Shown here: piece after piece, positions 2,645 through 24,993 of the stretch | How the letters are laid out: each line of letters starts with the position of its first letter | Position numbering within the stretch: the first letter of the stretch is position 1 | Source: Alphaproteobacteria bacterium | GTDB taxonomy: Bacteria > Pseudomonadota > Alphaproteobacteria > Rhodobacterales > Rhodobacteraceae | DNA: 33,451 nucleotides | Reading direction: 5' to 3' | Assembly: GCA_029289325.1 (NCBI GenBank) | Contig: JARFTV010000001.1 | Span: 1-33,451, forward strand | Translations under genes and position numbers: made by a program | Notes under the pieces: generated by a model | Told to the model about the DNA's origin: nothing | The model's database searches: none | The model's input: the letters and a program-made list of their open reading frames with translations, nothing else

Positions 2645-2669
2645 GGAACCCGCGTTTCCCCACGGCGTT
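2645..2669 (+). promoter_or_regulatory. EcfG-type stress promoter (exact match)
   Basis: GGAAC (2645-2649), 16-base spacer, CGTT (2666-2669): an exact fit to the alphaproteobacterial EcfG consensus. It lies 44 bases before the start of the exported protein gene at 2714, in the right orientation. Confidence 0.7.
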
Positions 2670-2713
2670 AAGTCTCCGTATTGCCAAAACGGCATCTGTA
2701 AATGGAGACAACC

Positions 2714-3199
2714 ATGTTCCGCATGAAAACCCTTGCTGCGACCGCGCTGGCCGGCGTCCTCGCGACCTCGGCCTTTGGCGCGGTGGATGCGATCAAGAAG
2801 ATCGACGTCAGCGCTGACCTTACCGCGCTGAACAACGAACAGGCCGCGAGCTTCTGGGCGAATCTGGAAACCGACCTCGAGAATGCCATCGCCGCCCGCG
2901 TGACGGACCGGATCGCGAATGACGGCGCCGAGATCATCGTCGATATCCGCGAGGTCGAGCTGGCCACCGCCTTCGAACGTGAGCTGAACATGGGCGATGC
3001 GGTGCTGGTGGGTCAGGTGAACATCAAGGATGACACCGACCACCCCAACAACGACGCCTATGAACTGACCGTGACGCTGGAAACGGCGCAGATCATCGTG
3101 CCGGAAGGGGCCGTGATCGTGCTGTCCACCGACACCACCGGCGCCTACAACCGCCTGATCGAGGCTTTTGCCGACGGTGTCGTGTCGCGACTGAAGTAA
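2714..3199 (+). CDS. Exported protein of unknown function, probable stress-induced
   Basis: A 161-residue protein with a signal peptide (residues 1-26, Ala-rich, cleavage near AFG-AV) and a mature part of mixed alpha/beta character with no cysteines, ending 'AFADGVVSRLK'. I do not recognise the family. The start at 2714 is preferred to an ATG at 2702 because GGAG lies 6 bases in front of it. The exact EcfG-type promoter upstream is the only functional clue and suggests a periplasmic or outer-envelope role in the general stress response. It is a single gene, flanked on both sides by hairpins. Confidence 0.8.
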   Translation: MFRMKTLAATALAGVLATSAFGAVDAIKKIDVSADLTALNNEQAASFWANLETDLENAIAARVTDRIANDGAEIIVDIREVELATAFERELNMGDAVLVGQVNIKDDTDHPNNDAYELTVTLETAQIIVPEGAVIVLSTDTTGAYNRLIEAFADGVVSRLK

Positions 3200-3206
3200 C
3201 CGTCCA

Positions 3207-3232
3207 GCGGCCGCGCCCGATGGCGCGGCCGC
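3207..3232 (+). terminator. Perfect 11-bp hairpin terminator
   Basis: GCGGCCGCGCC and GGCGCGGCCGC pair perfectly around a CGAT loop, 8 bases after the stop of the exported protein gene. The stem is very stable; no T run follows. Confidence 0.65.
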
Positions 3233-3392
3233 CGCTCGCGCCGCGTCCCTTTGACGCGACCCGCACCTTGCGATTGCATCTGGTTGACTGTTTTCGCCGG
3301 ATCGGGGAGTTTCAGGGTCCGAGCCGGCCAGAAGGGTCAGGTCAGATGACGAGCGTGCTACCCAACCGCCCCATTTTGTCCGGCCCGCCGTG

Positions 3393-5015
3393 ATGGCGCG
3401 TCGGGTCGCGCCACTTTCCGTGCTGGTGTTTCTTGCTGCGTCGGCCTTCGGGGTCGGGCTGGTCTGGGCCGTCTGGGTGGTCGAGACCCAGCGCATCCGC
3501 AGCAGCTTCCAGACCACCGCCGACATCGTCGTCGACAGGGTGGTCTCGCGGCTGGAAAAGCACGTGGTCCTCCTGCAGGCAACCCGCGGTTTCCTTGCCG
3601 CCCACGGGGGCGAGCTTGACCGCCTGGCCTTCGACCGCTTCCTTTCGACCATCGACCTCGCCCATGCACTGGGCGGTGTGCAGGGCGTAGGCTTCGCCCG
3701 CATGATTCCCGCCACGGCCGCCGCCGAGACCGAGGCCGAAATCGAGGTTCGCTACCGCATCGACACCGAGATCCGCCCTGCCACGACCGAGCCTTGGCGC
3801 ACTCCCATCGTGATGATCGGCCCGGTCACCGACCGCAACCTCGCCGCACTCGGTTTTGACATGTACGCCGAGACGACCCGCCGCAACGCGATGGATCGCG
3901 CCATCGCCAGCGGCCTGCCGCAAATGAGCGGGCCCGTCGAACTGGTGCAGGAAATCACGCTCGACAAGCAGACGGGCTTCCTCGTCTACCTTGCCTTCGG
4001 GGACACCACTGTGCCGCCCGTGACCGGCTTCGTCTACGCCCCCTTCCGCGGCGGCGACCTTGTACGCGCGGCTTTGGCAGAAGGCCCGGCGCTTCGTGTT
4101 TCTGTCACCGTGGTCGACACCGGCGCGCCGGACCAGCCAATCTATTCCAGCCATGAAAATCTCGACCCGGACGGGCTGACCCTTTCGCAGACCGTCGAAC
4201 TGGTCGGACGGCAATGGCGCTTCACCATCCGCGAGATTTCCCCCTCCTCCCCCTATCGGCGCCATCTGGGCAGCATCCTCGTCGGCCTGATCTCGCTCCT
4301 CTTCGCAGGCGCGGCCGCGGCCGCCGTGAATGCCCGGATGCATGAGGCCGAACAGGCCCGCGCCCTCGCTGCCGCCGCCGCGCGCGACGCGGATTATCGC
4401 GGGCTTCTGCTCAGCGAGATGAAGCACCGGATCAAGAACCACATCGCCCGCATCCAGTCGATCGCCCGCCAAAGCGCGCGGGGGGCAAGCGACGTGAAGA
4501 GCTTTGCCGAAACCTTCGACGCCCGCCTCCAGGCCATGGCCGCGGTGCAGGAAATCCTTGCCGGCACCACCCTGCCCCAGGCCGAGGTCCGGGCGATCCT
4601 GCGAACGGAACTGCGCCAGTGCTTCGACGGCGACGAGGTTGACCAGGTGCTGGACGGCCCCACGGTGATCCTGGACGAACGGCAGGCCCATGCCTTCGCC
4701 ATCGTCGCGCATGAACTCGTGACCAATGCGATGAAATATGGCGGGCTTTCCCCCAATGGCGAGGGCCTGCGCATCCTCTGGACCCTCACGGGCGGACCGG
4801 GCGCGGGGACGTGTCTTGTGGTCGACTGGCAAGAGAGCTTCGACAGCACCGGCGACGATACGACCCGCGCCGCCGGCTTCGGCTCGCGCCTGATCGACGC
4901 CAGCCTGAAGGGTGAGCTTTCCGGCACCCTGACCCGCACCTACCATGAGCGGGGTCTTTCGATCCGGCTGGAGTTTCCGCTGCCGCCCAAGTCCACAACC
5001 CGCGCCGCGCATTAG
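3393..5015 (+). CDS. CHASE-domain membrane histidine kinase, HWE/HisKA_2 type
   Basis: A 540-residue sensor kinase. Order: membrane helix at residues 7-29; periplasmic CHASE sensor about 65-270, recognisable by 'NLAALGFDMYAETTRRNAM' and 'QTGFLVYLAF'; second helix about 288-310; short linker; H-box 'EMKHRIKNHIARIQSIARQ' with phospho-acceptor His345; N-box 'HELVTNAMKYGG' with Asn445; glycine box 'GFGSRLI'. The H-box and 'WQE' element place it in the HWE/HisKA_2 class, whose members are the usual upstream kinases of PhyR in alphaproteobacteria. It has no receiver of its own. Inference: it may feed the PhyR switch encoded 3 kb away. Start: ATG at 3393 rather than the adjacent GTG at 3390; neither has a clear ribosome site. 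Confidence 0.88.
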   Translation: MARRVAPLSVLVFLAASAFGVGLVWAVWVVETQRIRSSFQTTADIVVDRVVSRLEKHVVLLQATRGFLAAHGGELDRLAFDRFLSTIDLAHALGGVQGVGFARMIPATAAAETEAEIEVRYRIDTEIRPATTEPWRTPIVMIGPVTDRNLAALGFDMYAETTRRNAMDRAIASGLPQMSGPVELVQEITLDKQTGFLVYLAFGDTTVPPVTGFVYAPFRGGDLVRAALAEGPALRVSVTVVDTGAPDQPIYSSHENLDPDGLTLSQTVELVGRQWRFTIREISPSSPYRRHLGSILVGLISLLFAGAAAAAVNARMHEAEQARALAAAAARDADYRGLLLSEMKHRIKNHIARIQSIARQSARGASDVKSFAETFDARLQAMAAVQEILAGTTLPQAEVRAILRTELRQCFDGDEVDQVLDGPTVILDERQAHAFAIVAHELVTNAMKYGGLSPNGEGLRILWTLTGGPGAGTCLVVDWQESFDSTGDDTTRAAGFGSRLIDASLKGELSGTLTRTYHERGLSIRLEFPLPPKSTTRAAH

Positions 5016-5018
5016 AAA

Positions 5019-5042
5019 GGCCCGCGCCGGATGGCGCGGGCC
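5019..5042. terminator. Bidirectional terminator between convergent genes
   Basis: GGCCCGCGCC and GGCGCGGGCC form a perfect 10-bp stem around GGAT, flanked by AGAAA on the left and CCTTCTTT on the right. It separates the kinase gene (plus) from the PRC-barrel gene (minus). Confidence 0.75.
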
Positions 5043-5065
5043 CCCTTCTTTGCAGTCGTCCCGCC

Positions 5066-6058
5066 TTACATCTGGTGTTCCGGCAGGGCTTCCAGCTCTT
5101 CCTTGGACATGTCGACCCAGATCGCCACATCCCCGGCACCGCCTTGGGCGACGGTCAGACGGTCCAGCGGGATCGCAACCGACCGGGCACCGATGCCCAG
5201 GAACCCGCCAACATCAAGGATCACGTCAGTAACCTGCCCGTCGCCGGTCAGCACCAGATCCGAGATCTCGGCAATCGAGGAATCGTTCATGTCGCGGACA
5301 TTCGCGCCGGTCAGCATCTCGGCGGTCAGAACCGTGCGGTCGACCGAGGTATACCCTTCCGGCAGGGTCATCGTGCCACGGGCGCCGGCATCGACATCCG
5401 CCGCCACGGTGCCGTCAGCGGGCAGGGTGGCGTCGGCGTCGGCGTTGGCGTTGGCGTCAGCCTGGGCCTGCGCATCCGCCTGGGCCTGCGCATCGATCTC
5501 GGCCTGGGTCTGAGCGGTCGCGGCATCGTCCGTCACCACGACTTCGCCGGTAGCGCCATCGGTGGCTGCGGCGCCATCCGTCATCGCCCCTTCGCCGGTC
5601 GTGGCGTCAGTCTGGACTTCCGCCCGGGTATCCTGACCCGGCATCACCCATTCCGGCGCGGTGTCCAGCGAGGCGCGGTCGGCCTGCATCACCAGGAACC
5701 AGTCGTCTGCATCCGTCGCGTCATCCTGGACAAAGCGCAGCGCGGCCATGTCGACGGCAACCTGGCGCTCGCCGATCCCAAGGAACCCGCCGATATCGAC
5801 CAGCACCGCATCCACGGTGCCGTCGCGGCCGATCACAAGGTCATTCACCTCGCCGATGTCGTTCCAGCCTTCCTGCACGCCCGCATAGCCTTCGGCATCC
5901 ACGGCAGCCTCACTGGCATAGATCCGCGCGCCGATCAGGTCCGAGGCGGTCACCGAAGGGCCGGCGGCCTCGGTCTGGAACATCGTATTGGCGTCCTGGG
6001 CCAGTGCCGGAGCAGCAAGGCCCGCCATGATGGCAGTGGTCATGAGCAGCGTTTTCAC
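5066..6058 (-). CDS. Exported protein with two PRC-barrel domains
   Basis: A 330-residue protein with a signal peptide (residues 1-20, cleavage ALA-QD) and two PRC-barrel domains, about residues 37-125 and 243-318. Each contains the same signature 'DIGGFLGIG' or 'DVGGFLGIG' after a DLV(I/L) strand, so the domains are an internal duplication. Between them lies an acidic, Ala/Asp/Gln-rich linker of about 90 residues, partly repetitive. PRC-barrels bind proteins, RNA or the photosynthetic reaction centre; exported double-barrel forms in alphaproteobacteria are of unknown function. GTG start with CAGGAGA 8 bases before it. An exact EcfG-type promoter lies 59 bases upstream, so it is probably a general-stress gene. 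Confidence 0.87.
   Translation of the reverse strand: MKTLLMTTAIMAGLAAPALAQDANTMFQTEAAGPSVTASDLIGARIYASEAAVDAEGYAGVQEGWNDIGEVNDLVIGRDGTVDAVLVDIGGFLGIGERQVAVDMAALRFVQDDATDADDWFLVMQADRASLDTAPEWVMPGQDTRAEVQTDATTGEGAMTDGAAATDGATGEVVVTDDAATAQTQAEIDAQAQADAQAQADANANADADATLPADGTVAADVDAGARGTMTLPEGYTSVDRTVLTAEMLTGANVRDMNDSSIAEISDLVLTGDGQVTDVILDVGGFLGIGARSVAIPLDRLTVAQGGAGDVAIWVDMSKEELEALPEHQM
5429..5505 (-). repeat. Coding micro-repeat in PRC-barrel linker
   Basis: A run of near-identical GCC-CAG-GCC and GAC-GCC-AAC codons encodes the alternating AQADAQAQADANANADADA linker. Imperfect CCTGGGCCTGCGCAT units occur twice on the plus strand (5461-5475 and 5479-5493). Such tracts can change length by slippage. 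Confidence 0.7.
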
Positions 6059-6116
6059 GGGACTCTCCTGTGTATCTCAAGGTGGTGCGACGCCCCCGGC
6101 GCCGCTTGCCCGGATC

Positions 6117-6141
6117 AACGTGGTGCATGGGGGCGAGTTCC
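6117..6141 (-). promoter_or_regulatory. EcfG-type stress promoter (exact match)
   Basis: On the minus strand GGAAC (6141-6137), 16 bases, CGTT (6120-6117). It points at the PRC-barrel gene, whose start is 59 bases downstream. Confidence 0.72.
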
Positions 6142-6178
6142 GGCGACGGGCACGCCCTGCGCGGGAATCCGCCGGGGG

Positions 6179-7774
6179 TCAGACCATCTCGTCGGGAACG
6201 AGGGGGAAGGCACGGCCGAAAGCCTCGGCCGATTTCTGGTCATAGGGCAGGATGAAGCCACGCCGGCGGGCGGGTGCCAGCTTCGCGTTGCGCGTCGCCA
6301 ACCGCCACCAGGCCAGCAGCGCGCGGTCCGGGTCAAAGAAATCCGCCCCGGCGTCCTGGGGCAGCCAATGCTCCATCAGCCGCCGCCGCAGCGCCGTTAC
6401 CGCCTCGGGCCGTTCGATCACCAGCCCCGCCTCGGTATCCCAACGCAACGAACGCCCGTTCAGGTTCGCCGACGAGACGATGGCCCGGCGGTCATCAAAG
6501 ATGCTGACCTTGGCATGGATATAGACCAGTTCTGCCCCGCGCAGCTGCGCCCGCCCCCGCGCACGGCTGCGCCGGGGTTGCGCTGCCCCGCCGATGAACA
6601 GCCGCCGCCCGAAACCCCGCCGCAGGATGCGCAGGGCCCGCGACTGCAGGAACTCGCCCAATCGCGCGTCAAGTCCGGTGGATCCCTCGAAGGCCACGTC
6701 GTCCGGGGCGGCCGGCAGGATCAGGATCATCTGCAGCCGCGGATTGCGCCGGGCCGCATGCGCCAGATGGCGGGCCAGGCGGCGGTCGCGGAAATACTGG
6801 GTCTCGACATAGATCAGTCGCTCGGCCTTATCGATCCCCGCGTGGTGCGCGGCGTCGATCTCGGTCACCAGCGGCTCGGGCGCGATGTGGCGCCCTGCCC
6901 AGCGCCGATGCCGCCGCGACAGCGTGCGAACCAGCCGCAATCCCTCGCGGTCCGGCGCCTGCGACAAGGGTTCGGCCTTTCCCGCGACGGCGGCGAGGAA
7001 GCTCTCCAGATGCGCCTGCGCATCCGCCGCCACCGGACCCTCGACCATCAGCTGGACGTCATGCCAGGTCTCATGGCCCGGCTGGTGATGTTCAGGCGTG
7101 TCGTAGAACCGTTCGTCCAGATCCAGCCCGCCGATATACAGCCGACGCCGGTCGAATACGGCCAGTTTCTGGTGGTGGGTGGCCGGGAAAAGCAGCGGCA
7201 TGGCCAGGAAGCGCGGGCGGGGGCGAACCTCTGCAGGCGAGGTCAGCAGGCTGCGCACCCCCGGCATCTCGCGCAGGGCCGCCCGGCGCTGCGCAGGCAA
7301 CAGGCGGCACAGCCACCGGCTCACCCGTGCCAGTCGCGCCCGGACCAACGGCCAGAACAGCAGCCGCGGGCCGATCCCGACCACCGCCGAATGCATCGCC
7401 GGGATCACCTGCAACCGCGCCTGCGGCCCGGCAAGATCAGCCGCAGCCCAGAACATCCGCACTGCCCGCCAGGTCGCGCGATGCAGCCGGGGACGCGCCA
7501 CGGGGTCGAAATCCGACAGGATCAGCGTCAGCTTGACCCCCCGCCGCAGCGTATGGATCACCAGGTCGAACCAGGTCTGCCCCACCGCCAACCCCTCGGG
7601 CGAGCGCAGCCGGGTCTTCAGGTCAAAGACCCGGAAACCCGCGATGATCTCGGCCTCGGCCGCAAGGAAGGCCCGCTCCAGCGCGGGATAGGCCTCGCCA
7701 GCGGTGACCAGCACCTGCAGCCCGTCGGCTTCGGTCGGCGGACGCGGAGGGGGATCGGCATCTGGCACGTGCAC
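6179..7774 (-). CDS. Phospholipase D-like protein with two HKD motifs
   Basis: A 531-residue member of the phospholipase D superfamily (cardiolipin synthase-like group). Both catalytic HxKxxxxD motifs are present: 'HHQKLAVFDRRRLYIGG' near residue 200 and 'HAKVSIFDDRRAIVSSANLNGRS' near residue 415, each followed by the usual G/N-G-S element. There is no signal peptide; a hydrophobic patch around residues 120-150 may touch the membrane. Likely activity is transphosphatidylation or phosphodiester hydrolysis; the substrate cannot be told from sequence. Start is a GTG at 7774, with only a weak ribosome site, 39 bases after the phyR stop, so co-transcription with phyR is likely, placing it downstream of the stress regulator. 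Confidence 0.85.
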   Translation of the reverse strand: MHVPDADPPPRPPTEADGLQVLVTAGEAYPALERAFLAAEAEIIAGFRVFDLKTRLRSPEGLAVGQTWFDLVIHTLRRGVKLTLILSDFDPVARPRLHRATWRAVRMFWAAADLAGPQARLQVIPAMHSAVVGIGPRLLFWPLVRARLARVSRWLCRLLPAQRRAALREMPGVRSLLTSPAEVRPRPRFLAMPLLFPATHHQKLAVFDRRRLYIGGLDLDERFYDTPEHHQPGHETWHDVQLMVEGPVAADAQAHLESFLAAVAGKAEPLSQAPDREGLRLVRTLSRRHRRWAGRHIAPEPLVTEIDAAHHAGIDKAERLIYVETQYFRDRRLARHLAHAARRNPRLQMILILPAAPDDVAFEGSTGLDARLGEFLQSRALRILRRGFGRRLFIGGAAQPRRSRARGRAQLRGAELVYIHAKVSIFDDRRAIVSSANLNGRSLRWDTEAGLVIERPEAVTALRRRLMEHWLPQDAGADFFDPDRALLAWWRLATRNAKLAPARRRGFILPYDQKSAEAFGRAFPLVPDEMV

Positions 7775-7813
7775 CCGCCAAGGATCATGCCCCCGCCCCG
7801 CACCCCCGAAGGG

Positions 7814-8623
7814 TCAGGCGTGCAGGCTTTCGGTCGATGAAAAGAACATGGCCTGGCTTACGGCCGAGCGGACCTGTTCTTCCGTATAGGGCTTGTTGAT
7901 CAGGAAGGCCGGCTCCGGCCGCTCGCCGGTCAGCAACCGCTCCGGGAAGGCCGTGATGAAGATCACCGGGATATCGCCGAACTGCGACAGGATCTCGTTC
8001 ACCGCATCGATGCCCGAGGAATTGTCGGCCAGCTGGATATCGGCCAGGATCAGGTCCGGTTTGTCGGCCGCGGCCATCTTCACTGCCTCGGAATGGGTGC
8101 GGGCGTTGTCGGTGACGCGGTGGCCCATCCCTTCGACGATGGCGGCGATGTCCATGGCGATGATCGCCTCATCCTCGATCACCAGGACCGAGCCGCGGAC
8201 AGAATCCTCCATCTCGCGCAGGGCCACGTCGATCAGGTGCCGCGCCTCGGAGGGATCGACCCCCATGATCGTGCCAACCTCGCGCAGATCGAAGCCCTCG
8301 ATCGTGTTCAACAGCAGCGCCTCGCGCGAATTGGGGGTCAGCCCCGCCAGATGCGCCTGGGCAACCCCTGCCAACCCGCCATCCGCCTCGGCCACCGGCG
8401 CGCCAGAGCTGGACCAGACCGAATGGAACACAGAAAACAGCGCAACCTTGGCATCGTCATGCTGCATCAGGGTGGAGGGCTCGGCCACCACGGCCTCCAG
8501 CACCGCGACAGCATATCTGTCGCCGCTGGTCTGGTTTCCTGTCAGTGCTCGGGAATAACGGCGCAGATAGGGAAGGTGACGGGCAACTGTTGCCGAAAGG
8601 TCCACCGCGTCCTGTGCGAGCAT
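7814..8623 (-). CDS. phyR: PhyR, anti-anti-sigma response regulator of the general stress response
   Basis: A 269-residue response regulator with the unusual PhyR order: N-terminal sigma-factor-like region (about 1-140, 'HLPYLRRYSRALTGNQTSGD' at the start and a sigma-4-like helix pair near 100-130) and C-terminal receiver (about 145-262). The receiver has the acidic pocket 'VIEDE', the phosphorylation site Asp195 in 'LADIQLAD' and the lysine in 'INKPY'. When phosphorylated it sequesters NepR. Start: ATG at 8623 with GGAG 9 bases upstream is preferred over in-frame ATG 8638 or TTG 8647 because it matches the family N-terminus. It is divergent from nepR-ecfG, the standard arrangement. Confidence 0.95.
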   Translation of the reverse strand: MLAQDAVDLSATVARHLPYLRRYSRALTGNQTSGDRYAVAVLEAVVAEPSTLMQHDDAKVALFSVFHSVWSSSGAPVAEADGGLAGVAQAHLAGLTPNSREALLLNTIEGFDLREVGTIMGVDPSEARHLIDVALREMEDSVRGSVLVIEDEAIIAMDIAAIVEGMGHRVTDNARTHSEAVKMAAADKPDLILADIQLADNSSGIDAVNEILSQFGDIPVIFITAFPERLLTGERPEPAFLINKPYTEEQVRSAVSQAMFFSSTESLHA

Positions 8624-8661
8624 CGATTGTATCTCCATCCTTCGCAATACATCGGGACTTT

Positions 8662-8686
8662 AACTCGGCAGGTCCCACCGGGTTCC
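8662..8686 (-). promoter_or_regulatory. EcfG-like promoter of phyR (one mismatch)
   Basis: Minus strand GGAAC (8686-8682), 16 bases, AGTT (8665-8662). The -10 differs from CGTT at one base but retains GTT. It lies 39 bases before the phyR start, suggesting that phyR is under feedback from EcfG. Confidence 0.5.
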
Positions 8687-8726
8687 CGAAATGTGAAAGA
8701 ATCCTCACATTTTCCGATTCCGCCGT

Positions 8727-8752
8727 GGAACCGAGTGTATACCAACAGCGTT
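8727..8752 (+). promoter_or_regulatory. EcfG promoter of nepR-ecfG (exact match)
   Basis: GGAAC (8727-8731), 17 bases, CGTT (8749-8752), 34 bases before nepR. Autoregulation of nepR-ecfG by EcfG is the known pattern. A GANTC site (GATTC, 8716-8720) lies just upstream of the -35 element. Confidence 0.8.
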
Positions 8753-8785
8753 CGTCCAGAGTGAGGAAGTGGGAAACAAGGCAAG

Positions 8786-8962
8786 ATGGGAAAAGAAAAA
8801 GACGAGGATGCGCCGAAGAGGCAGGCGATCCGGGCGCAGATCGACGAGAATCTGAAAAGGGTCTACACCTCTGCGCTCAACGAAGAGCTTCCCGATCGCT
8901 TCCGCGAGCTTCTCATGCAGCTCAAGGCGAAGGAAGCCGAGAAAGGTGGCGGCAAGCCATGA
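8786..8962 (+). CDS. nepR: NepR, anti-sigma factor of EcfG
   Basis: A 58-residue protein fitting NepR: a charged N-terminus, then two predicted amphipathic helices, 'IRAQIDENLKRVYTSAL' and 'LPDRFRELLMQLKAKEAE', the core that wraps EcfG or the PhyR sigma-like domain. The 'ENLKRVY' and 'ELPDRF..LL..L' elements are family hallmarks. It is cytoplasmic, holding EcfG inactive until PhyR~P binds. The stop overlaps the ecfG start as ATGA, so the two are translationally coupled. Upstream AAGG gives a modest ribosome site. Confidence 0.92.
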   Translation: MGKEKDEDAPKRQAIRAQIDENLKRVYTSALNEELPDRFRELLMQLKAKEAEKGGGKP

Positions 8963-9528
8963 CCGACGAACCAGCGGTCATCGATCCGCGCGACCGGCTG
9001 GCGGGGGCGATCCCCCGGCTGCGCGCCTTTGCGATCAGTCTGGCGCGGGATGTGACCCAAGCCGACGATCTTGTTCAGGACACGATCCTGAAGGCGTGGT
9101 CGAACATGGACAAGTTCGACCCGCGGACGAACCTTGACGCCTGGCTCTTCACCATCCTGCGCAACACCTTCTATTCCGCCCTCCGCAAGACCCGGCGCGA
9201 GGTCCAGGACACTGACGGCGTCCACGCTGCCTCCCTGTCCGAGAAGCCCGCCCATGACTCGCGGCTGGCCTTCCAGGACTTCCAGCGCGCCTTCGACCTT
9301 CTGTCGCCGGAACACCGCGAAGTGCTAATCCTTGTCGGCGCGTCCGGCTTTTCCTGCGAGGAAGCCTCCGCAATGATGGGCGTCGCGATCGGCACCGTGA
9401 AAAGCCGCGCCAGCCGGGCGCGAAAGCGGCTCGCCGAACTTCTGAACCTTGCCGAAGGAGAGGACCTGTTCTCGGGTACCGACGGGGCGACGCAGGCGGT
9501 CGTGCTGCGATCCGCCATCGCGGTCTGA
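8959..9528 (+). CDS. ecfG: EcfG-family sigma factor of the general stress response
   Basis: A 189-residue ECF sigma factor. Region 2 spans about residues 14-80 ('AFAISLARDVTQADDLVQDT', 'NMDKFDPRTNLDAWLFTILRN') and region 4 about 112-165 ('LSPEHREVLILVGASGFSCEEASAMMGV' and 'GTVKSRASRARKRL'). The wording of region 4 and the gene context with nepR and phyR place it in the EcfG (ECF15) group, which directs RNA polymerase to GGAAC...CGTT promoters. The ATG at 8959 overlaps nepR by 4 bases; AAGGTGG upstream is the ribosome site. The frame is open much further upstream, but that part overlaps nepR and phyR and is not real. Confidence 0.95.
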   Translation: MTDEPAVIDPRDRLAGAIPRLRAFAISLARDVTQADDLVQDTILKAWSNMDKFDPRTNLDAWLFTILRNTFYSALRKTRREVQDTDGVHAASLSEKPAHDSRLAFQDFQRAFDLLSPEHREVLILVGASGFSCEEASAMMGVAIGTVKSRASRARKRLAELLNLAEGEDLFSGTDGATQAVVLRSAIAV

Positions 9529-9530
9529 AC

Positions 9531-11219
9531 TTGGCCCGAAAAGGCCATCTGTCCACCAGCACCCTGGGTTTCCGCCTGGGGGGCACCCTCGTGCTTGCGC
9601 TGATGCCGCTGGGCATCCTGTCGGTCGTCCAGACCCAGATGGCGCAGGACGAGGTCGTGGCCACCACTCTGGAAGGGGTCGCCGGCGCCTCGCTCAAGGC
9701 GGTGCAGGGCCAGATCGACCTGATCACCGACGCCCAGACTTCGGCCCGGGTGCTTGCCGGCGCGCTGGCCTTCGCGATCCGCGAAGGGGCGGAGTGCACC
9801 GGCCGGATCAAGGCCGTGGCGGAGGGCCTGCCGTCGGCCACGCTGGTCGCCTATATCCCGATGTCCGGCCTTATGACCTGCTCGTCGACCGGCGACGTCC
9901 ATGATTTCGGGGACAACCCGCTTTTCCAGCGCATGATCGCCAAACCCGAGCCGATGGTGATGTACAATCCCCACGGCCCGGTCTCCGGCACGGCCGTGGT
10001 TGCCGTGAGCCACCCGGTCAAGGATGCGAACGGAACGCAGATCGGCGTCATCGCCATCTCGCTGCCCTATCTTTCCGTCGCCCCGCAGGATTATGCCGAC
10101 CCGGTCACGCTCTGGCGCCCGGAATACCTTGCCACGGTCCGCGGCGACGGGACGCTCCTCGTTTCCTCCGACCCCAGCCGCTCCCTCCTCGCCGCCTTGC
10201 CCGAGGGCGTGTCCATCGCCTCGCTCCCCAACCGCGTCGGCAAGCCCGAACTCCTGCATGGCCCCGATGAGCCCCGCATCGTCTCGGTGACGCCCGTGGC
10301 CAAGGATCTCTACCTGCTGTCGGTCTGGCAGCGGTCCGGGACCGATCTCCTCAGTCCCGCCAGCGCCGCCGCGCCCTATCTCCTGCCCGTCCTGACCTGG
10401 CTGGCCGCCCTGGTCGCTGCCAGTTTCGCCTCGAACCGCCTCGTCGTACGCCATGTCCGCGCCCTGTCGCGCTCGATGTCCGATTATGTCGCCACCCGCA
10501 CCCGGATCATGGTCCCAGACATGACCGACGCCCCGGCCGAGATCCAGAAGCTCCACGCCGTCTATGAACAGCTGATCCGCACCATCGAGCAGGAAGAGGC
10601 GGAACTGCAGAACCTCATCGTCGACAAGGACGTGCTCCTGCGCGAGGTCAACCACCGCAATGGCAACAGCCTGCAGATCATCGCTTCGGTCATGCGGATG
10701 TATCGCCGCGAAAGCCGGGACGAAGAGGTCCGCACGATTCTCGATGGCCTCATCAACCGGGTCATCGCGCTGTCCTCGACCCATTCCAGCCTTTACAGCA
10801 TGACCGGCCGCCGCGATGTGCCGATGGACGAGATCCTCGCCGGTGTGGTCCGCCGACTGAAAGAGATCCACGGCGTCGGGCTTGGCGTCGCGCGCAAGAG
10901 GTTCGATCCGATCCGCATGCCGGTCGAGGCCGCAGTCCCTCTCGCCATGGCGCTGGCCGAGATCGTCGGGAGCCATTTCAACTCCCGCACGGTTGCGACC
11001 CATGGGGTGGACGTCTCGCTGATCGAAAGCGGCGACGACATCTGCCTCAAGGTCGTTGGCCCGATCGTCCCCGAGTTCCAGCCCGAAACGACCACCGGCC
11101 TTGTCGCGCTGCCGCGCCGGATGCTGATGCAATTCGCTGCCCAGCTGCGCGGGGCCGTGGCGATCAAGATCGAGGATGACCGCTCGGTGATCGAGGTGAC
11201 CTTCCCCCGCATAGCATGA
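9531..11219 (+). CDS. Membrane sensor with degenerate histidine-kinase module (PhyP-like?)
   Basis: A 562-residue protein, two bases after ecfG. Membrane helix about 14-34, extracytoplasmic Cache-like sensor about 35-275, second helix about 278-300, HAMP-like linker, then a HisKA_2-type H-box 'REVNHRNGNSLQIIASVMRM' with His375. The ATP-binding half is abnormal: where kinases have 'NELVTNALKHA' this has 'LAEIVGSHFNSRT', losing the N-box Asn; the D-box is absent ('VVGPIVPEF') and the glycine-rich box reads 'GLVALPRRMLMQ'. It probably cannot bind ATP normally. A comparable degenerate kinase, PhyP, sits beside phyR in Sphingomonas and is reported to act as a PhyR phosphatase; a similar role is inferred here. 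TTG start, no clear ribosome site, so translation probably relies on coupling to ecfG. Confidence 0.82.
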   Translation: MARKGHLSTSTLGFRLGGTLVLALMPLGILSVVQTQMAQDEVVATTLEGVAGASLKAVQGQIDLITDAQTSARVLAGALAFAIREGAECTGRIKAVAEGLPSATLVAYIPMSGLMTCSSTGDVHDFGDNPLFQRMIAKPEPMVMYNPHGPVSGTAVVAVSHPVKDANGTQIGVIAISLPYLSVAPQDYADPVTLWRPEYLATVRGDGTLLVSSDPSRSLLAALPEGVSIASLPNRVGKPELLHGPDEPRIVSVTPVAKDLYLLSVWQRSGTDLLSPASAAAPYLLPVLTWLAALVAASFASNRLVVRHVRALSRSMSDYVATRTRIMVPDMTDAPAEIQKLHAVYEQLIRTIEQEEAELQNLIVDKDVLLREVNHRNGNSLQIIASVMRMYRRESRDEEVRTILDGLINRVIALSSTHSSLYSMTGRRDVPMDEILAGVVRRLKEIHGVGLGVARKRFDPIRMPVEAAVPLAMALAEIVGSHFNSRTVATHGVDVSLIESGDDICLKVVGPIVPEFQPETTTGLVALPRRMLMQFAAQLRGAVAIKIEDDRSVIEVTFPRIA

Positions 11220-11220
11220 C

Positions 11221-11242
11221 GGCCGACCCCGAGGGACCGGCC
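11221..11242. terminator. Interrupted hairpin between convergent genes
   Basis: GGCCG and CGGCC flank an inner CCC/GGG pairing with small bulges, located between the sensor stop (11219) and the DUF3618 stop (11250). It is a weaker candidate than the other hairpins here. Confidence 0.4.
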
Positions 11243-11249
11243 GCCCGCC

Positions 11250-12128
11250 TTAGTGCCGGATGCCGCTCCAGGCATCCTCAGGGTGCAGGGTTCGCCGGAC
11301 GCGGCTGATGTCGCGGCCCAGCGCCGATTGCAGACTTTGCGCCAGATCGCTGGCCTTGGTGACCTCGGCCTTCAGCGTGGCCCGCGCATCGTCCAGCAGG
11401 GCATCGCGTGCCTCACCCATCAGCCGGTCCTCTGCCTCGGTCGGCGGAAACAGCATCGCCACCGCCGCGCCCAGCCCCGCCGCGGCAAGGCCCGAGGCCA
11501 CCGGATGGTTCTCCACCACCTCGCGCCCCTTGGCGGTCGCCGTATGGCTGGCGCTGTAGATCCGCTCCCGCGCCTCCAGCGCCTCGGCCCGCGCGGCCTC
11601 GGTCAGACCTTCCAGCCCGTGCTCCAGAGCGGCCTTCGTGTCGCGGGCATAGGCGCCAAGGACTTCGGCCCGGTGCTTCGCGATCTCGGCCGCCGGGGCC
11701 AGACTCCGCCGCGCCGCATGGTCCAGCTTGCGCAACAGGTCCCGCGCCTGCATCCGCAGGGTCTTGGCCTGACGGAGCCATTCCTCGTCGGGGTCCACCG
11801 GCTCGGGCGCGGGCGGGCCGCCCTCGTCCTCCCAGCGGGTCAGGGCCTCGAACTTGTCGGCCGGGCGATGCTCGGCCTGATCCCGGTAGCGTCCCAGGAT
11901 CAGCGCGGCCAGCGCCACGCCCGCCACCGCCGCCGCCACCGGCTGCGCCCGGATCGCATGATCCAGCCGCGCCATCAGCGGCGAGGCCTGCGCGACCAGC
12001 GCCTCCTTGCCCTGCTCGACCAGCGCGCTCGGGCTCAGCCGGTCCTGCAGTTCGGCCAGCGAGCGGGCCAGTTGCGCCCGGTCGCGTTCCAGCGACCGCT
12101 CGATCTCATGGCTGTCAAAGTCAGACAT
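11250..12128 (-). CDS. DUF3618-type envelope protein
   Basis: A 292-residue protein beginning with the DUF3618 pattern 'EIERSLERDRAQLARSLAELQDRLSP', a helical segment, followed by a membrane helix about 64-82, a long charged helical middle part, a second hydrophobic stretch about 213-230 ('ASGLAAAGLGAAVAMLF') and another helical tail. It is rich in Ala, Glu and Arg with no cysteines. The family is of unknown function and is typically found beside holin-like membrane proteins in alphaproteobacteria. Its start overlaps the end of the preceding gene by 8 bases and has AAGGAG 6 bases upstream, so it is the last gene of a three-gene operon. Confidence 0.8.
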   Translation of the reverse strand: MSDFDSHEIERSLERDRAQLARSLAELQDRLSPSALVEQGKEALVAQASPLMARLDHAIRAQPVAAAVAGVALAALILGRYRDQAEHRPADKFEALTRWEDEGGPPAPEPVDPDEEWLRQAKTLRMQARDLLRKLDHAARRSLAPAAEIAKHRAEVLGAYARDTKAALEHGLEGLTEAARAEALEARERIYSASHTATAKGREVVENHPVASGLAAAGLGAAVAMLFPPTEAEDRLMGEARDALLDDARATLKAEVTKASDLAQSLQSALGRDISRVRRTLHPEDAWSGIRH

Positions 12129-12543
12129 GTCGCACTCCTTCCTCGCTCAATGCACTGCGCACCGCTTCGGCGTCGCGGCGGACGCCGCGCATCGCCCGGT
12201 CGGGCCACAGCCCACGCAGCGTCAGCGCCGCTTTGCCGGCCAGAGCCAACCCCGCCGCGATCCCGATCAGGACCAGCCCGACCAGAAGCGCAGCCCAGCC
12301 CGCGCCGAGACCCGCCTCCGCCAAGGCCGCGACCGCGGCCCCCGCCAGGACGTTCAGCGCCACAAGCGCCAGCAGGGCGGCCACGGCGATCTTCACCAGA
12401 CCGCCGACCGCCGCCTTCGCACCCTCGACCGCCTCGGCCTTGGCAAGCATCATCTCGCCCTTGACCAGCCGACCCAGACCCGCCGCGACCTCGGACAGAA
12501 GGGACGCCGTCCCTTCCGTCGTCCGTTCCGTCTCGCCCGGCAT
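12121..12543 (-). CDS. Holin-like membrane protein (phage_holin_3_6 family)
   Basis: A 140-residue protein with an N-terminal helical part (residues 1-48), two long adjacent membrane helices about 50-72 and 78-102, and a charged cytoplasmic tail. This matches the small 'putative actinobacterial holin-X / phage holin superfamily III' proteins that in alphaproteobacteria are chromosomal envelope proteins, not phage lysis genes; no other phage gene is near. Stop-start overlaps on both sides (TGATG with the upstream gene, 8 bases with the downstream one) mark it as the middle gene of an operon. Confidence 0.75.
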   Translation of the reverse strand: MPGETERTTEGTASLLSEVAAGLGRLVKGEMMLAKAEAVEGAKAAVGGLVKIAVAALLALVALNVLAGAAVAALAEAGLGAGWAALLVGLVLIGIAAGLALAGKAALTLRGLWPDRAMRGVRRDAEAVRSALSEEGVRHV

Positions 12544-13175: not shown

Positions 13176-13246
13176 GGCGGTTCTCCTGAATGTCGGGGTA
13201 AGGGTCCTCTGGGCGCCAAAGCCCGGTGCCCGTGTCATGGGCCTTA

Positions 13247-13272: not shown

Positions 13273-13328
13273 CGGCTGCCTTTGCCATCGGCCAGACCCC
13301 GCCGGGCGCAAAATTACTGCTTTTTGCG

Positions 13329-14261: not shown

Positions 14262-14274
14262 CCGAAGGTCCGGG

Positions 14275-14334: not shown

Positions 14335-16194
14335 ATGCCGGACCGCCGGGCCGAGGACAGCACGACCATGGCCTCCGACCCGCCCGGTCTCCTTGGGCCG
14401 CAGGACCCAGATGGTGGCGCTTCTGTCACCTCCTTGCGCACGCTGGCAACGATCGCGGTGGTCTGCGCCATCCTTTACGTCGGCAAGGACCTTTTCCTGC
14501 CGCTGGCGCTGGGGATGCTCATCGCCTTCATCCTGACGCCCGTGGTCAACTTCCTGCGCCGCCGGGGCTTGCGCGACACAGTCTCCGTCGTCCTTACCGT
14601 GATGGCCGCCGCCGCGCTGGTGGGGGCCTTCGTCCTGATCCTCGCCTACCAGATCAGCCAGATCGGGGCCAACCTGCCGCAGTATCAGGGCAACGTCCTG
14701 GGCAAGGTCGACACGCTGCTGGACGCCGGGAACGGTCGGGTGATCTCGCATCTGCAAGGTCTGGTCGAAAACATCTCCGCGCGGCTCCAGGCCGAAACCG
14801 CCGCCTCCGGGGACGCCGCGATGAAAGTCGAGGTGGTCGAGCATACCGGCCTGAGCGACTGGCTTACCGGGGTGATCCTGCCCGCCCTGACCCCGGTGGG
14901 AATCTTCGGCCTGGTCTTCGTCGTGGTGATCTTCGCGCTTCTGGAACGCGCCACCCTCCGCGACCGACTGGTGCAGCTGATCGGCGGGACCAACATCCTC
15001 GCCACCTCGCGCCTGCTGGCCGAGGCAGGCTCGCGCGTGTCGACCTATCTCGTCGCGCAGCTTCTGGTGAACATCATCTACGCCGTGCCGATCTGGCTGG
15101 GCCTCTGGGTCATCGGCGTCCCGAACGCTCTGTTCTTCGGCCTTGTGACGCTGGTCCTGCGCTTCGTGCCCTATCTCGGATCGGCGATCTCGGCGCTTCT
15201 GCCGCTGCTGATGGCCTTTGCCGTCTCGCCCGACTGGTCGCTGGTCCTTTGGACCGGGGCGTTGTTCATCCTGGTTGAATTCGTCACCTCGAACTTCATC
15301 GAACCCTGGTTCTACGGCCAGCGCACCGGGCTCTCCCCCCTCGCGGTGATCGTCTCGGCCATGTTCTGGACCTGGCTCTGGGGCCCCGTCGGCCTGATCA
15401 TGGCCACGCCGCTCACCGTCTGTCTGGTGGTGATCGGCCACCACGTCCCCAGCCTGCGCCTCTTCCCGATCATGCTGGGGGACGAGCCCGTGCTGGCCGA
15501 ATCCGCCCGGCTTTACGACCGCCTGCTCGCCGGCCAGAGCTTCGCCTTCACCGAGGCCGCGACGACCTCGACCGCGCAGCATTATCTGGCGGACTACTAC
15601 GACCGCAGCGCGATCCCCGCCCTTGCCCTGGCCCAGGCCGACCATGAGGCGGGGCTCCTGTCGGACTATCAGACCAACCGCATCGCCCGCTCTGCCCTGA
15701 TCCTGACCCAGGACCTCGAGGCCGTGGTCGAGGAAGAACTCGCCGCCGCGCAGGAACGCCCCGCCGAGGACCCCAAGGCCCCGCTGGCGACCAATGGCGT
15801 TCTGGACGGCATCGACCGGCGCGTCGTGGTGATGGGCGCGCGCACCGTGCTGGACGACGCCGCGGCGCAGATGCTGTCGCAGGCGCTCCGGGCCGAGGGT
15901 GCCCAGTCGCTCGCGGTGCACCGCCGTTCGGCCCTGCCCGGCCCGCTGGGGGTCCTCAAGCCCGAGACGCTGATCCTCGTCTCGCTCGACCCGGTCCCGC
16001 CGCGCGCCGTGGATTACCAGCTCCGCCAGCTCCGCCGCCGCCTGCCGGGGGTGCGCATCGGTCTGGCGCTCTGGCCGCCGCCGCAAACCCAGGAGGGGCC
16101 ACCGGAAAAACTCGCCTCGGCCGATTTCCTGGCGCAGGGCATGGAAGCGACCCTCGCCGCCGCCTTCCGCCCGCCGGAACCCGCCGCGGCCTGA
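14335..16194 (+). CDS. AI-2E/PerM-family permease with long cytoplasmic C-terminal extension
   Basis: A 619-residue membrane protein. Residues about 30-385 are an AI-2E/PerM family permease with about eight hydrophobic segments and the family hallmarks 'PLALGMLIAFILTPVVNFLRRRG' near the start and 'NFIEPWFYGQRTGLSPLAVIVSA' near the end. The substrate is unknown; members have been linked to export of signalling molecules or Na+/H+ exchange. The family is usually 340-400 residues; here about 235 extra follow, in two parts: a helical 'SARLYDRLLAG' to 'VVEEELAAAQE' stretch (390-475) and an alpha/beta part ('RVVVMGARTVLDDAAAQML' to 'RIGLALWPPP') that resembles a small Rossmann/B12-binding-like fold. 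The upstream exact EcfG site makes it a stress gene. An ATG at 14368 is an alternative start. Confidence 0.87.
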   Translation: MPDRRAEDSTTMASDPPGLLGPQDPDGGASVTSLRTLATIAVVCAILYVGKDLFLPLALGMLIAFILTPVVNFLRRRGLRDTVSVVLTVMAAAALVGAFVLILAYQISQIGANLPQYQGNVLGKVDTLLDAGNGRVISHLQGLVENISARLQAETAASGDAAMKVEVVEHTGLSDWLTGVILPALTPVGIFGLVFVVVIFALLERATLRDRLVQLIGGTNILATSRLLAEAGSRVSTYLVAQLLVNIIYAVPIWLGLWVIGVPNALFFGLVTLVLRFVPYLGSAISALLPLLMAFAVSPDWSLVLWTGALFILVEFVTSNFIEPWFYGQRTGLSPLAVIVSAMFWTWLWGPVGLIMATPLTVCLVVIGHHVPSLRLFPIMLGDEPVLAESARLYDRLLAGQSFAFTEAATTSTAQHYLADYYDRSAIPALALAQADHEAGLLSDYQTNRIARSALILTQDLEAVVEEELAAAQERPAEDPKAPLATNGVLDGIDRRVVVMGARTVLDDAAAQMLSQALRAEGAQSLAVHRRSALPGPLGVLKPETLILVSLDPVPPRAVDYQLRQLRRRLPGVRIGLALWPPPQTQEGPPEKLASADFLAQGMEATLAAAFRPPEPAAA

Positions 16195-16201
16195 AATGCG
16201 A

Positions 16202-16227
16202 AAGGGCCGGACAAGTGCCCGGCCCTT
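16202..16227 (+). terminator. Hairpin terminator after AI-2E-family gene
   Basis: AAGGGCCGG pairs with CCGGCCCTT around an 8-base loop, 7 bases after the stop. Confidence 0.7.
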
Positions 16228-16238
16228 CCCGATAAGTA

Positions 16239-16261
16239 GGGGCGGGTTCGTGACCCGCCCC
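16239..16261 (-). terminator. Hairpin terminator after pyridoxamine-oxidase-like gene
   Basis: GGGGCGGGT pairs with ACCCGCCCC around a 5-base loop, just after the stop of the minus-strand gene. The two hairpins at 16202-16261 serve the two convergent genes. Confidence 0.65.
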
Positions 16262-16269
16262 CCATGGTG

Positions 16270-16773
16270 TCAGAGATCGACCTGTCCCCGCGTCCCCAGA
16301 TCGGGGGACCGTCCCTTCACTGCACCACGAACTATATTCGCAATTCCCCGCAACAGCCCGTGCCCGTCCCAGACATCCGCACGGTCGGGGTCCACCACCA
16401 GCGCGACCACGTCATGCGCCTCGGGTCCGTCGGGCCAGAAGACCTCGGCCCCCGGATTCCACAGCTCCCGCACCAGCGCCCGGTCAGGATCGACCACCGC
16501 CTGCCCATGCAGCGCCACATGGTCGCCCCGGCCCTGATAGGACAGGAATACCGACCCATTGACCCGGATATCCTTCGCCGCCGCCGAGTTGCTCTCGGTC
16601 AGGATGTAGATCACGCCCCGATCCCGGCGCGGAATGGTCGACATCGGCCGCCCCCGCATCCCCTGATCCGAGCAGGTGACCAGCATGGCGATGTCGATCG
16701 ACCCAAGCATGTCCCAGACGCGCTCCGGCTCGATCTCCGAGGGGTCGTCCGCGTGGGGGCTGTCATCGGTCAT
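16270..16773 (-). CDS. Pyridoxamine 5'-phosphate oxidase-like general stress protein
   Basis: A 167-residue protein of the split-barrel flavin-binding superfamily, general-stress-protein-26-like group. Visible elements: N-terminal helix 'ERVWDMLGSIDIAMLVT', then 'RGRPMSTIPRRDRGVIYILTE' and 'NGSVFLSYQGRGDHVALHGQAVV', the usual beta-strands around the flavin site, and 'RELWNPGAEVFWPDGPEAHDVVALVV', diagnostic of this subgroup. Such proteins bind FMN/FAD and are induced by stress, with unproven enzymatic roles. The exact EcfG promoter directly upstream fits. ATG 16773 is chosen; a GTG at 16809 with GGTGG before it is possible and would add 12 residues. Confidence 0.88.
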   Translation of the reverse strand: MTDDSPHADDPSEIEPERVWDMLGSIDIAMLVTCSDQGMRGRPMSTIPRRDRGVIYILTESNSAAAKDIRVNGSVFLSYQGRGDHVALHGQAVVDPDRALVRELWNPGAEVFWPDGPEAHDVVALVVDPDRADVWDGHGLLRGIANIVRGAVKGRSPDLGTRGQVDL

Positions 16774-16825
16774 CTGGGATCCCGGTCTGCTGGCAAAACG
16801 GCGGCTCACGCCACCGTGGGCATCA

Positions 16826-16850
16826 AACGCCCGACGTGCCGATCGGTTCC
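16826..16850 (-). promoter_or_regulatory. EcfG-type stress promoter (exact match)
   Basis: Minus strand GGAAC (16850-16846), 16 bases, CGTT (16829-16826). It points at the pyridoxamine-oxidase-like gene, 53 bases before its ATG. Confidence 0.75.
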
Positions 16851-16880
16851 CGGGAACTTCAAAAAATTTGAAAAAAGTTT

Positions 16881-16910
16881 CGGGGCCGGGATCCTGCGAC
16901 CCCGGCCCCG
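16881..16910 (-). terminator. Terminator of clpB
   Basis: CGGGGCCGGG and CCCGGCCCCG pair perfectly over 10 bp; on the minus strand the hairpin is followed by AAACTTTTTTC, supplying the T run. It begins 11 bases after the clpB stop. Confidence 0.85.
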
Positions 16911-16920
16911 TTCTTCTGCC

Positions 16921-23906: not shown

Positions 23907-23932
23907 CGCCCCGATCCCAGCCGGAGGCCGCA

Positions 23933-24637
23933 ATGCCCGCAGATGACCGCCTGATCGTCGCCCTCGACGTACCGAACCTCGTGCAGGGCATGGACCTTGC
24001 CACCCGCATCGGCGACGCCGCCAGCTTCTACAAGATCGGCCTCGGGATGCTGACCGGCGGCGGCCTCGCGCTGGCCAACGAGCTCAAGCAGGAACACGGC
24101 AAGCGCATCTTCCTCGACATGAAGCTCTTCGACATCGGCGCCACGATCGAGGCCGCGGTCCGGGGCCTCGCGCAATACGACCTCGACTTCCTCACCGTCC
24201 ACGGCGACCCGCAGGTCGTGGCCGCCGCCGCCACCGGCAAGGGCGGGACCAATCTCAGGATCCTCGCCGTCACCATCCTCACCTCGCTCGACCGTGCCGA
24301 CCTCGACGCGAACCTGATCAAGCCCGGCGACATCCACCAGATCACCCTCGAACGCGCCGCCCGCGCACTTGCCGCGGGAGCCGATGGCGTCATCGCCTCC
24401 CCGCAAGAGGCCGCGATGATCCGCGCCCTGCCCGAGGCGACGGGCAAGCTCATCGTCACCCCCGGCATCCGCCCCGTCGGGGCCGCCACCGGCGACCAGA
24501 AGCGCATCGCCACGCCGGGCCAGGCCATAGCCGATGGTGCCGACCATATCGTCATCGGCCGTCCGATCTGGCAGGCCGCAGACCCCGCCGCCGCCGCCCG
24601 CGCCGTGATCGCCGAACTCCCGCCGCGCCGCGCCTGA
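23933..24637 (+). CDS. pyrF: Orotidine 5'-phosphate decarboxylase
   Basis: A 234-residue TIM-barrel enzyme catalysing the last step of UMP synthesis (OMP to UMP). The catalytic Asp-Lys-Asp array is in 'FLDMKLFDIGAT' (about 60-71); 'LTVHGDP' and the phosphate-binding 'VTPGIRP' and 'DHIVIGRPI' are all present. Length is normal for the bacterial class. The ATG at 23933 has GGAGG 5 bases upstream; the open frame extends much further upstream but overlaps the divergent kinase. Single gene, high confidence. Confidence 0.96.
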   Translation: MPADDRLIVALDVPNLVQGMDLATRIGDAASFYKIGLGMLTGGGLALANELKQEHGKRIFLDMKLFDIGATIEAAVRGLAQYDLDFLTVHGDPQVVAAAATGKGGTNLRILAVTILTSLDRADLDANLIKPGDIHQITLERAARALAAGADGVIASPQEAAMIRALPEATGKLIVTPGIRPVGAATGDQKRIATPGQAIADGADHIVIGRPIWQAADPAAAARAVIAELPPRRA

Positions 24638-24677
24638 CAAACCGCCCCTGCGGCCGATTGTCTGCACCCCGGCATCG

Positions 24678-24691
24678 GGCTTTACAAAGCC
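24678..24691. repeat. Inverted repeat upstream of bfd
   Basis: GGCTTT-AC-AAAGCC is a perfect 6-bp inverted repeat 49 bases before the bfd start. It is a possible operator of an iron regulator, but it does not match the Fur, Irr or RirA boxes I know. Confidence 0.35.
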
Positions 24692-24739
24692 GACTGTTTT
24701 CGTCAGACATGGATCCGCAAGCCAGCGGAGGACACAGCC

Positions 24740-24967
24740 ATGATCGTCTGCCATTGCCAGTCGATCAGCGACCATGACATCCGCGCGGCGGTGGATTGGA
24801 TGCGCGCCGCCGATCCGCAGACGCTGATCACCCCCGGCAAGGTCTACCGCGCCTTGGGCAAACGCGCCGATTGCGGCGGCTGCATGCCGCTTTTCCTCGA
24901 CACGCTGCACAAGGCCCCGGCCTTCCGTCTCCCCGACGCACCCGCACCGCTCCGCCAGACCGGCTGA
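24740..24967 (+). CDS. bfd: Bacterioferritin-associated [2Fe-2S] ferredoxin
   Basis: A 75-residue protein with the Bfd cysteine pattern: 'CHC' at residues 4-6 and 'CGGC' near residue 46, which hold one [2Fe-2S] cluster. Bfd reduces bacterioferritin to release stored iron. The next gene is bfr, supporting the identification. The last ~15 residues are proline-rich and not conserved. GGAGG about 9 bases before the ATG is the ribosome site. Confidence 0.93.
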
Positions 24968-24968
24968 C

Positions 24969-24993
24969 GGAACCGCCGCCCGGTCGTCTCGTT
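24969..24993 (+). promoter_or_regulatory. EcfG-type stress promoter of bfr (exact match)
   Basis: GGAAC (24969-24973), 16 bases, CGTT (24990-24993), starting one base after the bfd stop and 29 bases before bfr. It would let bfr be transcribed independently of bfd under general stress. Confidence 0.68.

Follow-up and report, generated by a model that had tools for sequence, protein, structure and literature searches.

A 33,451-nucleotide stretch of a Tabrizicola-like Rhodobacteraceae genome (Alphaproteobacteria bacterium, GenBank assembly GCA_029289325.1, contig JARFTV010000001.1, positions 1–33,451 of the forward strand; hereafter the window, C77:1-33451 in our contig numbering) contains a complete PhyR-NepR-EcfG general-stress module together with two HRXXN kinases. 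These genes are part of a 14.3-kb block (2605..16920) that extends from the end of the fasciclin gene (2604) to the stop codon of clpB (16921). We interpret the window as the master locus of the alphaproteobacterial general stress response (GSR) with the nearest part of its regulon, kept as one block by selection and relocated as a unit, and we assign a probability of roughly 85% to this interpretation. Relatives hold the block at another place or lack it, which suggests that the regulator and its targets were kept and moved together.

Regulators and promoter sites of the block

The window shows these elements of a GSR locus: the PhyR domains, a nepR-ecfG operon, a nearby HWE/HisKA2 kinase with an HRXXN motif, and EcfG-type sites before both regulator transcripts. 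PhyR, with a sigma-like domain and a receiver, is encoded on the minus strand (7814..8623, the start being taken from the codon-usage call), and PF22029, PF22233 and PF00072 match in the frame 7814-8647. On the plus strand, nepR (8786..8962), which encodes the anti-sigma factor (PF18557), overlaps by 4 bases with the gene of the EcfG sigma factor (8959..9528). EcfG is 93% identical to a Tabrizicola aquatica protein in the same setting and scores 288 bits against model NF009198 (cut-off, 270 bits), whose only name is 'RNA polymerase sigma factor'. The gene of a HisKA_2 histidine kinase (9531..11219, plus strand; HRXXN motif HRNGN) follows; the NCBIfam PhyK model matches it with an E-value of 2e-41, yet with 142 of 750 bits, far under the cut-off. 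The other kinase is a CHASE-HWE histidine kinase (3420..5015, plus strand; Pfam) with the motif HRIKN. The first base of the window is also the end of its contig and lies about 9 kb away from ecfG, and the contigs of T. aquatica and T. soli (G016 and G004 in our survey) end about 8.8 kb from ecfG; these shared ends suggest a repeat, such as an rRNA operon, just left of the window start.

A pattern scan of both strands of the window revealed six exact matches to GGAAC-N16/17-CGTT and no more, at the six places given by the first-pass annotation of this sequence. All are intergenic and are located, in coordinate order, 32, 58, 33, 34, 52 and 29 bases upstream of start codons, the distances resting on gene calls made with a codon-usage script; the range of 29–59 bases given earlier is therefore corrected at its upper end to 58. 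As a full set the six were an undercount, since four further intergenic sites have an exact GGAAC and one mismatch in the −10 element, located before phyR, the DUF3618/holin operon, the DUF1328 gene and the SDR-like gene, and the background rate of such intergenic one-mismatch sites is 3 per 161 kb. Exact and one-mismatch sites together number nine within 2645-16850. Two more one-mismatch matches, at 20221 (within a gene) and 32562, resemble background and are not claimed as promoters.

Chance was rejected as the source of the six sites by shuffling, by a control outside the window and by density statistics. In dinucleotide shuffles of the window the mean number of matches was 0.39 and the maximum was 2, with six or more in none of 100. 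The whole genome (4.17 Mb, 120 contigs) contains 82 exact matches versus 69 for a reversed-pattern control, so the exact pattern is barely above control and it is position, not count, that tells signal from noise. Among the 76 matches outside the window, 32 lie between genes, and a same-strand start follows within 200 bases in 27, whereas among the first 42 of the 69 control matches the corresponding numbers are 8 and 2. This result argues against an equal motif density inside genes, which was the outcome that would have refuted the earlier proposal. With a 150-base limit, the genome has 32 promoter-like exact sites and the window holds six of them, while the density outside predicts 0.21 (Poisson P about 1e-7). 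When 32 sites were placed at random 20,000 times, six within any 22.4 kb was never reached.

Outside the window, 26 promoter-like sites remain, and many of the genes that follow them are of stress type. The 26 genes include those for catalase, Fe/Mn superoxide dismutase, DJ-1/PfpI, topoisomerase IB, OmpA, MgtC, BrkB, DUF72, DUF3309 and PRC-barrel proteins, but an ABC transporter gene, a member of a cytochrome oxidase assembly family, a response regulator gene and one for an eCIS-core protein are among them too; one further gene is read as a putative RpoH-like sigma factor, and 9 of the 26 have no family above cut-off. By analogy with the known family, as presented in section 6.2 of PMC8103513, which is the source of the mechanism used here, the two HRXXN kinases would sense stress and phosphorylate PhyR, phospho-PhyR would bind NepR, and EcfG would be set free. 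EcfG would then transcribe its own operon, phyR, and the genes for the exported, PRC-barrel, DUF1328, SDR-like, AI-2E permease and flavin proteins together with the DUF3618/holin operon, and also the bacterioferritin gene and the genes behind the about 26 exact sites elsewhere (catalase, superoxide dismutase, the RpoH-like sigma factor and topoisomerase IB among them).

Putative target genes and conservation of their sites

The sites were compared in a footprinting set of 28 stretches, consisting of the window, 11 stretches from further genomes and 16 named loci. The exact site before the nepR-ecfG-kinase operon (8727..8752, plus strand) is exact in 25 of 27 cases, and the site before phyR (8662..8686, minus strand), which has one mismatch in the window (AGTT), is exact in 24 of 26 orthologues. 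No site, even with one mismatch allowed, was found before the flanking genes clpB, fasciclin, msrP, pyrF, mtaB and dapF (0 of 22 copies), and of 152 background genes nine had a one-mismatch site and none had an exact one.

At the left end of the block, an exact site (2645..2669, plus strand; exact before 11 of 12 orthologues) precedes the gene of a small exported protein (2702..3199, plus strand), which has no Pfam family at E ≤ 0.001. Its start is possibly at 2714, as the matching ATG is used by 8 of 10 aligned relatives, and the distance to the promoter is then 44 bases. The protein is conserved as an EcfG-site target in Rhodobacteraceae. Its fold model is of low confidence (mean predicted local distance difference test score, pLDDT, 65.7) and has a template modelling (TM) score of at most 0.51 to PelC/LptE/DUF330-type periplasmic proteins, so a PelC/LptE-like identity is not claimed. 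The PRC-barrel gene (5066..6058, minus strand; Pfam) is preceded by an exact site (6117..6141, minus strand) that is exact in 7 of 8 orthologues. A phospholipase D-like (PLD) gene (6179..7774, minus strand; Pfam) is separated by a 39-base gap from phyR, with which it possibly shares a transcript. Relatives rarely have an exact site directly before the gene of the CHASE kinase (0 of 9), the HisKA_2 kinase (1 of 26) or the PLD protein (1 of 13), and these three genes are therefore read as operon members or as uncontrolled.

On the other side of the regulators, a three-gene operon (11250..13175, minus strand) encodes a DUF3618 protein, a holin-superfamily protein and an amphipathic repeat protein, the last with an apolipoprotein-like match below cut-off; its site (13247..13272, minus strand) has one mismatch (CATT). 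The DUF1328 small protein (13416..13577, plus strand; Pfam) also has a one-mismatch site (TGTT; 13329..13353, plus strand), which is exact in 10 and has one mismatch in 9 of 20 orthologues. The gene at 13720..14202 (minus strand) encodes a conserved 160-residue protein without a family. Its confident model (mean pLDDT 87) resembles a shortened Rossmann fold of the SDR type, and the provisional label 'STAS-like' was dropped, having no evidence behind it. The site of this putative SDR-like gene (GGTT; 14237..14261, minus strand) has one mismatch in the window and is exact in 7 and has one mismatch in 3 of 10 orthologues. An exact site (14275..14300, plus strand; exact in 13 of 15, one of them, in L158, within a called gene) precedes the AI-2E-family permease gene (14335..16194, plus strand; Pfam). 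The last gene of the block encodes a pyridoxamine-oxidase-like flavin protein (16270..16773, minus strand; start from the codon-usage call), which we presume to be akin to 'general stress protein 26', and its site (16826..16850, minus strand) is exact in all seven orthologues. The earlier claim that regulators and targets are clustered is borne out, and the promoter set is supported by position, by chance estimates and by conservation.

The bacterioferritin gene (25023..25508, plus strand; family match) had been counted among the clustered targets. It does have an exact site (24969..24993, plus strand), which is exact also in G022, G031 and G012, but it does not belong to the tight block 2605-16920 and is a separate target about 8 kb beyond it. 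No exact sites were found before the genes located between the block and bacterioferritin (clpB, cutC, a ROK-family gene, pyrF and others). The stretch from bacterioferritin to mtaB (25509-26602, about 1.1 kb) contains at most one small doubtful reading frame, and several other genes are found there in G004 and G022.

Block positions, proposed relocation and alternative explanations

The block has a common gene order (flavin, AI-2E, SDR-like, DUF1328, amphipathic/holin/DUF3618, kinase, ecfG, nepR, phyR, PLD, PRC-barrel, CHASE kinase), which, with one or more genes absent in part of the genomes, recurs in the genus at two places. The first, position A, lies close to fxsA, to a coxMSL-type operon or to both, in some cases with further genes in between, and is occupied in 12 genomes (G001, G005, G008, G009, G011, G012, G018, G021, G022, G024, G029 and G031), in eight of which both flanks are in view; the names fxsA, Tim44, secB, cox and pyrF were assigned by eye and not from a family search. 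Position B, between fasciclin and clpB, holds the full block in the source genome, T. aquatica and T. soli, and the surroundings are of another kind in G007, G028 and G019; the survey of positions leaves out G006 and G017. Among 30 clpB neighborhoods, position B is empty, with fasciclin directly adjoining clpB, in G001, G021, G024 and G003, and in G022 it contains the flavin gene alone. Position A is uninterrupted (fxsA then secB) in 14 same-genus genomes, the source genome included. The coxM flank is 90–95% identical in position-A genomes, where visible, and in the other genomes searched its identity does not exceed 77% (G020). The coxMSL-type operon (e.g. G022 C1, G001 C22 and G031 C1) seems to be linked to the position-A chromosomal arrangement. 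Presence of the regulators and of some targets was also compared across the genus. Of the seven NepR-negative genomes with a completeness of at least 90%, six lack PF22029 (PhyR/EcfG-like) or have it only below cut-off. A flavin protein of at least 70% identity was found in 6 of 10 NepR-positive versus 0 of 11 NepR-negative same-genus genomes searched, and bacterioferritin (at least 74%) in 7 of 10 versus 2 of 11, in both cases uncorrected for kinship and with four of the 11 NepR-negative genomes under 90% complete. In G024 (L267, C2, 9924-11800), the locus at position A is reduced to phyR-nepR-ecfG, and the phyR gene is divided among three called reading frames, apparently through decay or a sequencing error.

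The three position-B genomes group together in a tree of EcfG and PhyR, with a value of 96 in the Shimodaira-Hasegawa-like approximate likelihood ratio test (SH-aLRT), and in the marker tree they fall within one five-genome clade. The ClpB protein was too conserved as a species marker (4 of 28 inner branches starred), so a tree was built from ClpB and Tim44 DNA, on which the presence of the GSR is little more clustered than in shuffles (55–56 of 500 as low). We infer that the simplest history is a single relocation of the block, the majority of genomes pointing to A as the origin and B as the destination, and that selection would have held the block together when, in the lineage that includes the source genome, T. 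aquatica and T. soli, it was carried whole to the junction of fasciclin and clpB, with G009 and G022 leaving room for horizontal exchange. The 'locally assembled stress island' of the first-pass annotation therefore stands as a cluster but is not local to this genome, as the block occurs at another place in twelve same-genus genomes.

Several observations weigh against our interpretation of the window. The junction at the 3′ end of clpB (L320-L349) contains various other genes in most of the remaining genomes and is therefore variable across the genus. Resolution is weak in the marker tree, still so at depth, and G022 and G009 are placed differently in it and in the EcfG and PhyR tree, which could mean horizontal exchange instead of inheritance. 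The ends of the block were searched for repeats and nothing was found beyond one shared 9-mer, and base composition is ordinary. Among 14 relatives, the DUF3618 operon is preceded by an exact site in only four and by a one-mismatch site in seven. Bacterioferritin has no close site in G001 and G007, and in G016 and G004 its site has one mismatch and is about 106 bases away. Counted over whole genomes, the exact motif occurs 67–79 times in four genomes with NepR and 39–50 times in four without it, but the reversed control outnumbers the motif in all eight (103, 103, 115 and 158 with NepR; 158, 178, 92 and 162 without), so these totals are only suggestive, and base composition may add to the difference.

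The block could instead be a horizontally acquired genomic island, the cargo of a mobile element, not vertically inherited and moved within the chromosome. In favor of this, NepR scores above cut-off in 19 of 31 same-genus genomes, and this pattern needs 6–7 changes on the marker trees, of which at least 4–5 are forced by well-supported branches. The island pattern of a site occupied in some genomes and empty in others was indeed observed, and the conflict between the trees for G022 and G009 points the same way. However, some absences may reflect incomplete assemblies, no integrase or transposase family was found among the 30 window proteins scanned, AAA-domain cross-hits of ClpB apart, and the sole tRNA gene of the window (28796) is 12 kb from the block. 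The G+C content of the block is 0.674 (flanks, 0.653 and 0.675), and its tetranucleotide distance is 0.101, compared with 0.121 for the right flank and 0.082–0.091 for neighboring stretches. With such ordinary composition and ends without repeats beyond the one 9-mer, a mobile element was rejected as the identity of the block. The position-B genomes also group in the EcfG and PhyR tree and share a five-genome clade in the marker tree, and we consider horizontal acquisition unlikely, at about one chance in four.

Clustering could also be a by-product of gene order retained since the alphaproteobacterial ancestor, of no advantage in itself. The surroundings of ecfG do hold more motif than control matches in 62 loci from other Alphaproteobacteria, for the most part Rhizobiales and many of them closely related (2.99 versus 0.33 per 20 kb), as they do in 18 Rhodobacteraceae loci (5.63 versus 0.72), so that clustering near ecfG extends beyond the genus and is stronger in Rhodobacteraceae. 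However, gene content and order differ by lineage, yet the same types of genes recur beside ecfG (Gemmobacter, Pseudotabrizicola), and the order of the block was kept through its change of place. We consider a mere by-product of ancestral order unlikely, slightly more so than an acquired island. An ordinary autoregulated ECF locus, in which only the phyR and nepR-ecfG sites are real and the others are chance matches or unused, would fit the textbook autoregulation of the regulators (PMC8103513, section 6.2) and the motif totals close to or below control, but it is largely refuted, and very improbable, as sites recur at similar distances before the exported, PRC-barrel, AI-2E, flavin and DUF1328 genes and before none of the flanking copies, and their density in the window is far above chance.

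A second cluster and relation to known systems

The stress island in the window is not a single case, since a second cluster is located on the same contig, about 105 kb away. The one further PF22029 match in the genome (C77:119462) lies in a 168-residue EcfG-like sigma factor (C77:119414-119920), and the search of the genome yielded no second NepR or PhyR. Around it, at C77:114161-134154 (L366, L367), there are 11 promoter-like matches to GGAAC-N16/17-(C/G)GTT, two of them overlapping on opposite strands, with a background of 1 in 161 kb. The sites precede genes for YetF-like, Ku, DUF892, DUF2934, catalase, PRC-barrel and small proteins, and the neighbors include LigD (Ku-LigD-Ku), methylpurine glycosylase and SDR genes. 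Stretches around the best PF22029 paralogue of G016, G007, G031, G012, G004 and G009 contain 7–12 sites, orthology having been checked for G016 alone, and four other stretches (G022, G001, G034 and G003), picked through ECF matches that are not necessarily orthologous, contain no such sites.

The two islands differ in the −10 element. Summed over seven related genomes, the ratio of CGTT to GGTT is 46:9 in island 1, the block in the window, and 17:48 in island 2, and the excess of CGTT in the first and of GGTT in the second holds in each of the seven genomes, although island 1 was found via CGTT and the genomes compared are related. In the source genome alone, the ratios are 6:1 and 3:8 (Fisher p 0.05). 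It is conceivable, but doubtful, that the regulon is organized partly as two sigma-centered islands in which the −10 letter marks the reader, with EcfG reading CGTT in island 1 and the paralogue reading GGTT in island 2. If true, this would make it possible to test how two EcfG-family sigma factors discriminate between promoters. According to section 6.2 of PMC8103513, there is no general consensus on the specific functions of EcfG paralogues.

PMC8103513 describes, in that same section, the PhyR-NepR-EcfG (ECF15) regulator arrangement and partner switch, and the window shares with it the three regulators, the nepR-ecfG operon, the divergent phyR, sites before both transcripts and an adjoining HRXXN kinase. 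The regulon described there is very large and the locus comprises the regulators and kinase only, whereas in the window almost every transcript of the relocated block is covered, by nine sites spread over 14.2 kb. For the EcfG regulon of Sphingomonas melonis Fr1, the accessible text of PMC6599016 gives the motif GGAAC-N17-20-GTT and the targets PRC-barrel, catalase, topoisomerase IB, Ku and 'general stress protein 26', the first four of which are also found behind sites here; in that text the sites accumulate before regulated genes, with no mention of clustering around ecfG. Rubellimicrobium thermophilum has two separate GSR loci, with predicted promoters GGAAC-N16-17-C/GGTT, and PhyR and EcfG are present in both (PMC12148442, available portion), unlike the second cluster here, in which the EcfG-like sigma factor stands without a second NepR or PhyR. 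In the Rhodobacter sphaeroides phyR locus, as far as the excerpt of PMC5830050 extends, an EcfG-like gene is located on the strand opposite to phyR, as here. The literature was covered at the level of titles and the starts of abstracts, with subscription papers outside its scope, and at that level we found no report of EcfG sites clustering around ecfG or of a relocating block.

In summary, the system itself is known, and the new points are its packaging as a relocating block, which is unusual, and the second cluster, which is centered on a paralogue and differs in its −10 letter. The usual picture of a global stress regulon is one of genes dispersed along the chromosome. Here, a master sigma factor, its switch, sensors and some of its targets are located in one block whose position varies among relatives, some of which lack it, and this constitutes a natural experiment on selection for proximity between a regulator and its targets.

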